Below are positions 16,089 through 16,202 of a stretch of DNA of 64,000 bases, piece after piece; position 1 is the stretch's first letter; every line of letters begins with the position of its first letter. A model generated the notes under the pieces. It made no database searches, was not told where the DNA came from, and saw nothing but the letters and a program-made list of their open reading frames with translations. The stretch spans positions 105,498 through 169,497 of the IMG/VR virus record IMGVR_UViG_3300044675_001501; one strand, given 5' to 3'. A program made the translations under genes and the position numbers. Origin of the DNA: a virus.

Positions 16089-16202
16089 AGGATACTTTTT
16101 TAGTGCACTAACCAATTGTGCTATTTTTCCAATGGAAAAAGTTGGACTCGAACCAACAACCTCTCGCTCTATATGCGAAAATGTTTTTGCTGCAAGTATC
16201 CT
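16089..16202 (-). repeat. Clamp element D around a permuted tRNA
   Basis: AGGATACTT/AAGTATCCT (9 bp) closes a 114-base element beginning with GCAGCA like element A. It lies between the CCA of tRNA-Leu(UAA) and tRNA-Ser(UGA). Confidence 0.7.
16104..16179 (-). tRNA. Circularly permuted tRNA gene (3' part first)
   Basis: In minus-strand order: anticodon arm TTCGC-ATATAGA-GCGAG (16179-16163), variable AGGTT, T-arm GTTGG-TTCGAGT-CCAAC, acceptor 3' strand TTTTTCC (16140-16134), ATT, acceptor 5' strand GGAAAAA (16130-16124), TA at 8-9, D-arm GCAC-AATTGGTTA-GTGC (16121-16105). Rejoined at the D/anticodon junction it makes a perfect cloverleaf with 7/7 acceptor pairs, anticodon AUA and no CCA. Permuted tRNA genes are known from some algae and archaea. 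Fusion of remnants of two tRNAs is the alternative. Confidence 0.7.

Follow-up and report, generated by a model that had tools for sequence, protein, structure and literature searches.

Permuted tRNA genes, in which the 3' half of the tRNA lies ahead of the 5' half, are known in red and green algae and in Thermofilum. Another RNA of tRNA-like build is YrlA (Rfam RF02553), the tRNA-mimic Y RNA of bacterial Ro60/Rsr. According to the Rfam model and citing papers, YrlA is reported from bacteria and mycobacteriophages, and a role as a gate or tether on the Ro ring has been proposed for it. The Class I RNAs of Dictyostelium are 42–65 nt long and have a short end stem, an 11-nt motif and a 3' CUGU (PMC7919456). 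In Listeria phage CKA15, abundant non-coding transcripts, suspected to be Y RNAs, are found between the tRNA region and an Rsr-like gene (PMC12282133).

The window analyzed here is a stretch of 64,000 nucleotides, part of a 169,497-bp IMG/VR virus record, in which 25 tRNAs called by ARAGORN crowd the region from 11.5 to 16.5 kb. An earlier note had described a permuted tRNA gene at 16104–16179, with the 3' part first, ATT between the two parts, a complete cloverleaf on rejoining and a 9-bp stem joining the ends. We find the permuted order on the minus strand with all elements present, but the unit is larger, extending over 16089–16202. From 16202 to 16089 it reads AGGATACTT GCAGCAAAAACAT TTCGC(ATATAGA)GCGAG AGGTT GTTGG(TTCGAGT)CCAAC TTTTTCC ATT GGAAAAA TA GCAC(AATTGGTTA)GTGC A CTAAAA AAGTATCCT. 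The predicted minimum free energy (MFE) structure of this RNA is a five-way junction, in which the rejoined cloverleaf (7/7 acceptor pairs, D-arm, anticodon arm, AGGTT and T-arm) is closed by the 9-bp stem, as the note had proposed. Its energy is −32.7 kcal/mol (z = −3.75), and none of 200 shuffled sequences is equally stable. The transcript is expected to run on into GUU.

The anticodon arm of the unit has a 5-bp stem and a 7-nt loop with U33. The anticodon would be AUA (A34, flanked by A32 and G37), which is unusual for a bacterial tRNA. At normal thresholds, neither ARAGORN nor Rfam calls a tRNA at the unit. Below threshold, Rfam matches it to YrlA with 37.3 bits (cut-off 69) and to tRNA with 23.7 bits (cut-off 29). 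By inspection, no bulge-helix-bulge is seen at the termini or the junction, where the 9-bp stem stands instead.

The unit is best read as a member of a widespread, mostly unannotated family of phage small RNAs, in which tRNAs or pieces of tRNAs are carried on a conserved handle beside a Ro60-like protein. As defined by sequence comparison, the handle is a 7–9-bp stem with UNCAGCAA after its 5' strand, AAAA before its 3' strand and CUGUU after it. The tRNA order is permuted because the free ends of the RNA sit in the handle, which is inserted beside the anticodon arm.

Searching phages for DNA nearly identical to the first 25 kb of the window returned matches to single tRNAs only. A weak BLAST match led to Stenotrophomonas phage DLP_6, where the first 20-odd bases are identical; this relative has the T-arm, acceptor, D-arm and closing stem, and the anticodon arm is absent. 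Scanning IMG/VR with a pattern for both ends retrieved 19 stretches containing permuted tRNAs with differing bodies. A second scan, which required CTTGCAGCAA and then a T-loop without any end stem, revealed more permuted units. Their end stems have other sequences and still pair (AGGATGC/GCATCCT, AGGAAAC/GTTTCCT), and such differing yet pairing stems occur in units chosen without the stem in L026, L028, L035, L037, L039, L041 and L049.

The search of related phages for the same order, which the earlier note had suggested, yielded 46 distinct permuted units from other phages and from bacteria. Among them are 39 different acceptor pairs, and linker length ranges from 3 to 20 nt. Acceptor pairing is 7/7 or 6/7 in all but three units, which have 5/7; there was no selection on pairing beyond this 5/7 floor, and complementarity of this extent goes well beyond chance. 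The units are split either between the D-arm and the anticodon arm, as in the window, or between the anticodon arm and the variable arm. A perfect 7-nt anticodon loop with U33 is retained in many relatives, and some permuted ones have loops of 5–6 nt. The exact handle is kept between distant phages whose tRNA bodies differ. The same handle holds whole tRNAs opened at different points, tRNAs without an anticodon arm, bodies without an acceptor, and anticodon stem-loop RNAs of about 60 nt. Carriers of permuted units include Felixounavirus Alf5 (L111, 14430–14565), Enterococcus phage TJE2, Cronobacter phage S13 and mycobacteriophage Clautastrophe. Clautastrophe has a YrlA-like unit and an anticodon-arm-only unit, both beside its Ro gene.

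On the basis of 17 short handle RNAs we built a covariance model (R1), whose training copies were chosen partly for having the stem, so that their covariation is biased upward. R1 gave 125 matches at E up to 1 across 45 loci. Of 118 distinct handle RNAs examined, 87 have no T-loop. A canonical anticodon stem-loop, defined by a 5-bp stem, a 7-nt loop, Y32, U33 and R37, is present in 36 of these 87, as compared with 1.3 expected over all 118 with shuffled interiors; relatives in this count are non-independent and the AU-rich interior consensus of R1 may favour AU-rich anticodon loops, and the pairing of the interior stem lies outside R1. The displayed anticodon identities include Lys UUU, Thr UGU, Tyr GUA, Ser and Ile. 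In bacterial loci without a Ro-like gene, the best R1 match is no better than E 0.75. The T5 and XacN1 tRNA clusters give no R1 match better than E 1.6, and no Ro-like gene was found in the stretches read. The T5 cluster (L122, 10285–13950) contains stable, partly tRNA-like RNAs annotated with unknown function, at which R1 gives no match.

Counting the permuted unit, the window contains five copies of the handle (Table 1). In one of them, Rfam calls a tRNA-Gly(UCC) at 15898–15963 (minus), covering positions 3–68 of the model only. As judged from the sequence, this is probably not a decoding tRNA, because a handle stem replaces its acceptor stem.

Table 1. Features of the permuted unit, the other handle RNAs and the Ro60-like gene in the window. 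R1 is the covariance model described in the text.
Feature	Position	Strand	Basis and remarks
Permuted tRNA-like, Y-RNA-like unit, 114 nt	16089–16202	minus	R1 26.9 bits, outside training set; MFE fold
End stem, 5' strand AGGATACTT	16194–16202	minus	9 bp; MFE fold; stem covaries across family
End stem, 3' strand AAGTATCCT, then GTT	16089–16097	minus	9 bp with 5' strand; MFE fold
Conserved handle motif UUGCAGCAA	16187–16195	minus	CAGC-A invariant in alignment A3
Anticodon arm TTCGC(ATATAGA)GCGAG	16163–16179	minus	MFE fold
T-arm GTTGG(TTCGAGT)CCAAC	16141–16157	minus	MFE fold
Acceptor stem TTTTTCC-ATT-GGAAAAA, 7/7 pairs, 3-nt loop	16124–16140	minus	MFE fold; TTTTTCC 16134–16140, GGAAAAA 16124–16130
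D-arm GCAC(AATTGGTTA)GTGC	16105–16121	minus	MFE fold; preceded by TA
Second copy: handle and anticodon stem-loop only, TACAA(CTTGTAA)TTGTA, Thr UGU	12954–13015	minus	Sequence comparison, R1
Third copy: handle and anticodon stem-loop CTTTA(CTGGAAA)TAAAG, Ser GGA	14710–14764	minus	R1 40.5 bits, outside training set
Fourth copy: tRNA-Gly(UCC) body in normal order, handle stem AGAATCG/CGATTCT in place of acceptor	15889–15983	minus	R1 21.8 bits
Fifth copy: longer, non-tRNA interior with two hairpins, directly upstream of Ro-like gene	6411–6510	minus	Fold, sequence comparison
Ro60/TROVE-vWA-like protein, proposed binding partner	4984–6408	minus	Pfam DUF2828 and DUF7788; AlphaFold2/Foldseek

Comparing the AlphaFold2 model of the 4984–6408 protein with the PDB by Foldseek revealed that its ten best matches are all Ro60/TROVE structures, among them human Ro60, Deinococcus Rsr and the Ro60 of Thermus phage phiLo; the model is moderate (pLDDT 75, TM 0.53). 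A phmmer search against PDB sequences gave no match, and the relation came from the fold comparison.

The handle RNAs and the Ro-like gene occur together. Among 46 loci of bacterial genomes, found by DNA pattern alone, the gene is present in 11 of 11 structured loci versus 2 of 35 others (P = 6e-9), and those two (L072, L082) are permuted units by eye that the scorer missed. It is also present in all four loci retrieved with the anticodon-arm-only pattern and in 27 of 50 IMG/VR handle records, many of which are fragments; the baseline is 677 of 50,697 phage records. Each of the eight Ro-like phages sampled from INPHARED has handle RNAs near the gene or the tRNA cluster. Three records that contain handle RNAs or permuted units, L050 (148 kb), L052 (208 kb) and L057 (63 kb), have no DUF2828 or PF05731 match, and their partner is possibly divergent or missing. 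PF05731, the classical TROVE domain, has no match in 26 records, these three among them.

In the broad sense, a Y RNA has an end-pairing stem with a conserved protein-binding motif, a Ro60/TROVE-type protein in the same genome and physical binding to that protein. The unit has such a stem and a conserved motif that would bind protein, and the gene at 4984–6408 lies in its genome. We propose, with a probability of about 0.8, that it belongs to a phage Ro60 (TROVE-vWA, DUF2828) RNP as a small Y-RNA-like RNA bearing a complete tRNA mimic.

In common with YrlA, as represented by the Rfam model and citing papers, the unit has the order of T-arm, closed acceptor hairpin and D-arm, and lies near a Ro-type gene. 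However, its YrlA score falls short of the family cut-off. The window unit has an anticodon arm, whereas the YrlA module is without one, as is the DLP_6 relative. The handle of the window, UUGCAGCAA with AAAA-stem-CUGUU, is missing from the YrlA consensus, and the partner is of the DUF2828 type instead of PF05731 TROVE. Owing to the different handle and the wider repertoire, we place the unit as a Y RNA outside YrlA. The algal and Thermofilum permuted tRNA genes share with it the 3' half ahead of the 5' half. In contrast to those genes, no processing signals were found in the phage units, the split is variable, some relatives are incomplete tRNAs, and a Ro-like gene is linked.

The Dictyostelium Class I RNAs (RF01414) resemble the handle in the end stem, in a motif that directly follows the 5' strand (CCUUACAGCAA in the Rfam consensus) and in the CUGU end. 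The RF01414 model has no match in the window. Its best phage match, 23.1 bits under a cut-off of 41.5, falls on the first member of a tandem of three handle RNAs located upstream of gp57 in A511, with E 5.7 over 4227 families, or about 0.001 for one family in 47 kb. The Dictyostelium RNAs differ in being eukaryotic and in their reported binding of an RRM protein, and we found no mention of Ro60 in PMC7919456. We treat the resemblance as a weak lead. In phage A511, which is related to CKA15, the three tandem handle RNAs occupy the place corresponding to the CKA15 transcripts, although PMC12282133 names no motif and identifies no RNA. The A511 handle RNAs (11660–11927) lie between gp57 and a sub-threshold ROOL RNA (L112, 10465–11016; 87.5 bits, cut-off 99.1), which is located about 1 kb upstream of this Ro-like gene. 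This ROOL RNA may be the counterpart of the very abundant non-coding transcripts of CKA15.

As a permuted tRNA gene, the unit would be cut at the junction of D-arm and anticodon arm, circularised and then opened within the ATT linker through RNase P and tRNase Z, to serve in translation. The complete cloverleaf, with its 7/7 acceptor, 5-bp anticodon stem, 7-nt loop and U33, agrees with this mechanism, and many relatives have the canonical loops that decoding would need. The unit sits in a tRNA cluster where ARAGORN called no tRNA-Tyr, and host enzymes could supply the processing. However, AUA is an unexpected anticodon in bacteria, the 3-nt linker leaves little space for two end cleavages, and inspection shows no bulge-helix-bulge at the junction. 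No RtcB or PF09414 RNA ligase was detected in the 169-kb record, which is possibly incomplete. The relatives argue in the same direction: some have no anticodon arm or loops of 5–6 nt, the split point varies, and the same handle bears anticodon-arm-only and acceptor-less versions. The cloverleaf with its 3' part before its 5' part is accompanied neither by a splice signal, by inspection, nor by a conserved canonical anticodon. Given the 3-nt acceptor cap, the AUA anticodon, the loss of loops and arms in relatives and the undetected RtcB and PF09414 ligases, we consider a religated, working tRNA improbable. The earlier note is right on the permuted order, on the cloverleaf and on the closing stem, but the mechanism that it implies, a precursor religated into a working tRNA, is not supported in view of the varying split and the arm-less and arm-only relatives, among which the handle and the Ro60-like gene are constant.

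A dense tRNA cluster is where duplications and deletions are to be expected, and the unit could be a decayed or recombined tRNA remnant without function. Yet the exact handle is conserved in distant phages despite different tRNA bodies, the acceptors are paired throughout the 46 units, and the units are linked with the Ro gene, which makes this explanation very improbable. A deletion remnant, the outcome that the earlier note saw as refuting its claim, is excluded by the conservation of permuted tRNA-like units among phages. A tmRNA-like or permuted tmRNA gene appears still more remote. The tRNA domain is permuted there too, and Rfam has a permuted tmRNA family (RF04321), a member of which is seen in L050 (4238–4542, 63.4 bits). 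Over the window unit, however, there is no tmRNA match, and the cloverleaf fills the 114 nt, so no space is left for a tag frame.

In the Y-RNA-like reading that we prefer, the Ro-like protein would bind the handle. The tRNA part would remain uncleaved with its acceptor capped by the short loop, and would therefore be uncharged; in this state it may be displayed. The occurrence of several anticodon arms of differing identity per phage suggests that these arms serve as bait or decoys, targeted by host enzymes with specificity for the anticodon arm. Anticodon nucleases are established defence effectors, as in the case of Cas13a (PMC11042736) and PARIS AriB (PMC12409363). If the identity of the unit is as proposed, the tRNA parts could serve as decoys or bait for tRNA-recognising host enzymes, among which anticodon nucleases and other defence effectors aimed at tRNA are the most likely; we give this role slightly less than even odds.

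The main alternative concerns the same RNP, in which the tRNA module would act without any decoy role as a gate or tether of the YrlA type, controlling access to the Ro ring or recruiting an RNase such as PNPase. The alignment indicates that YrlA shares the permuted module of T-arm, closed acceptor and D-arm, and a Ro–Y RNA–PNPase machine and tRNA mimicry are published, as cited in PMC12282133. The neighboring YrlA-like and anticodon-arm-only units of Clautastrophe are also consistent with it. On the other hand, this function leaves the arm-only RNAs and the several anticodon identities per phage unexplained, and we hold it as possible at odds well below even. Broader and rather doubtful is the proposal of a display system in phages that have a Ro60-like protein. 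Arrays of small RNAs with one common Ro-binding handle would hold out different tRNA parts (anticodon loops of several identities, acceptor-less tRNAs, permuted tRNAs) as decoys to tRNA-cleaving or tRNA-modifying host defences, and the Dictyostelium Class I RNAs would belong to this RNA family as eukaryotic members.

The handle offers a searchable signature for the RNA partners of DUF2828 Ro-like proteins, which are present in more than 1% of phage records, including Felix O1-like phages, KVP40, A511, Schiekvirus and mycobacteriophages. Permuted tRNA-like genes, missed by tRNA finders, are common in phages, and some apparent phage tRNAs, for example the acceptor-less Gly at 15889–15983, are probably non-decoding. 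The role of the phage Ro–Y RNP becomes directly testable in E. coli K-12, and the resemblance to the Dictyostelium Class I RNAs gives a lead toward their function.

In Lachnospiraceae, the handle is a closed hairpin within a tRNA of ordinary order; the topology is the same, except that the RNA ends now lie at the acceptor. This hairpin of about 40 nt lies between the D-arm and the anticodon arm in L099, L061, L058, L064, L069, L074, L079 and L093, with a Ro-like gene nearby. In L099 and L061, the tRNA-like gene carrying it is immediately upstream of the Ro-like gene. In L068, the Lachnospiraceae Ro-like gene is split into three open frames in the assembly. An intron or self-splicing element was also considered, as the hairpin resembled a 40-nt intron; it was dropped because the handle also surrounds non-tRNA interiors and the loci encode a nearby Ro-like protein. 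In KVP40 (L110, 507–753 and 2304–2419) and S13 (L116, 13908–14150), genes of 113–124 nt annotated as tRNA-Pseudo or tRNA-OTHER are probably tRNAs carrying an inserted handle hairpin. A recurrent non-tRNA interior reads as an H-type pseudoknot (GCTA..TTGTC..TAGC..GACAA) and is found in L026 (7615–7676), L015 (5343–5408), L004 (4913–4974), L037 (13569–13640), L021 (5186–5253) and L041 (779–845).
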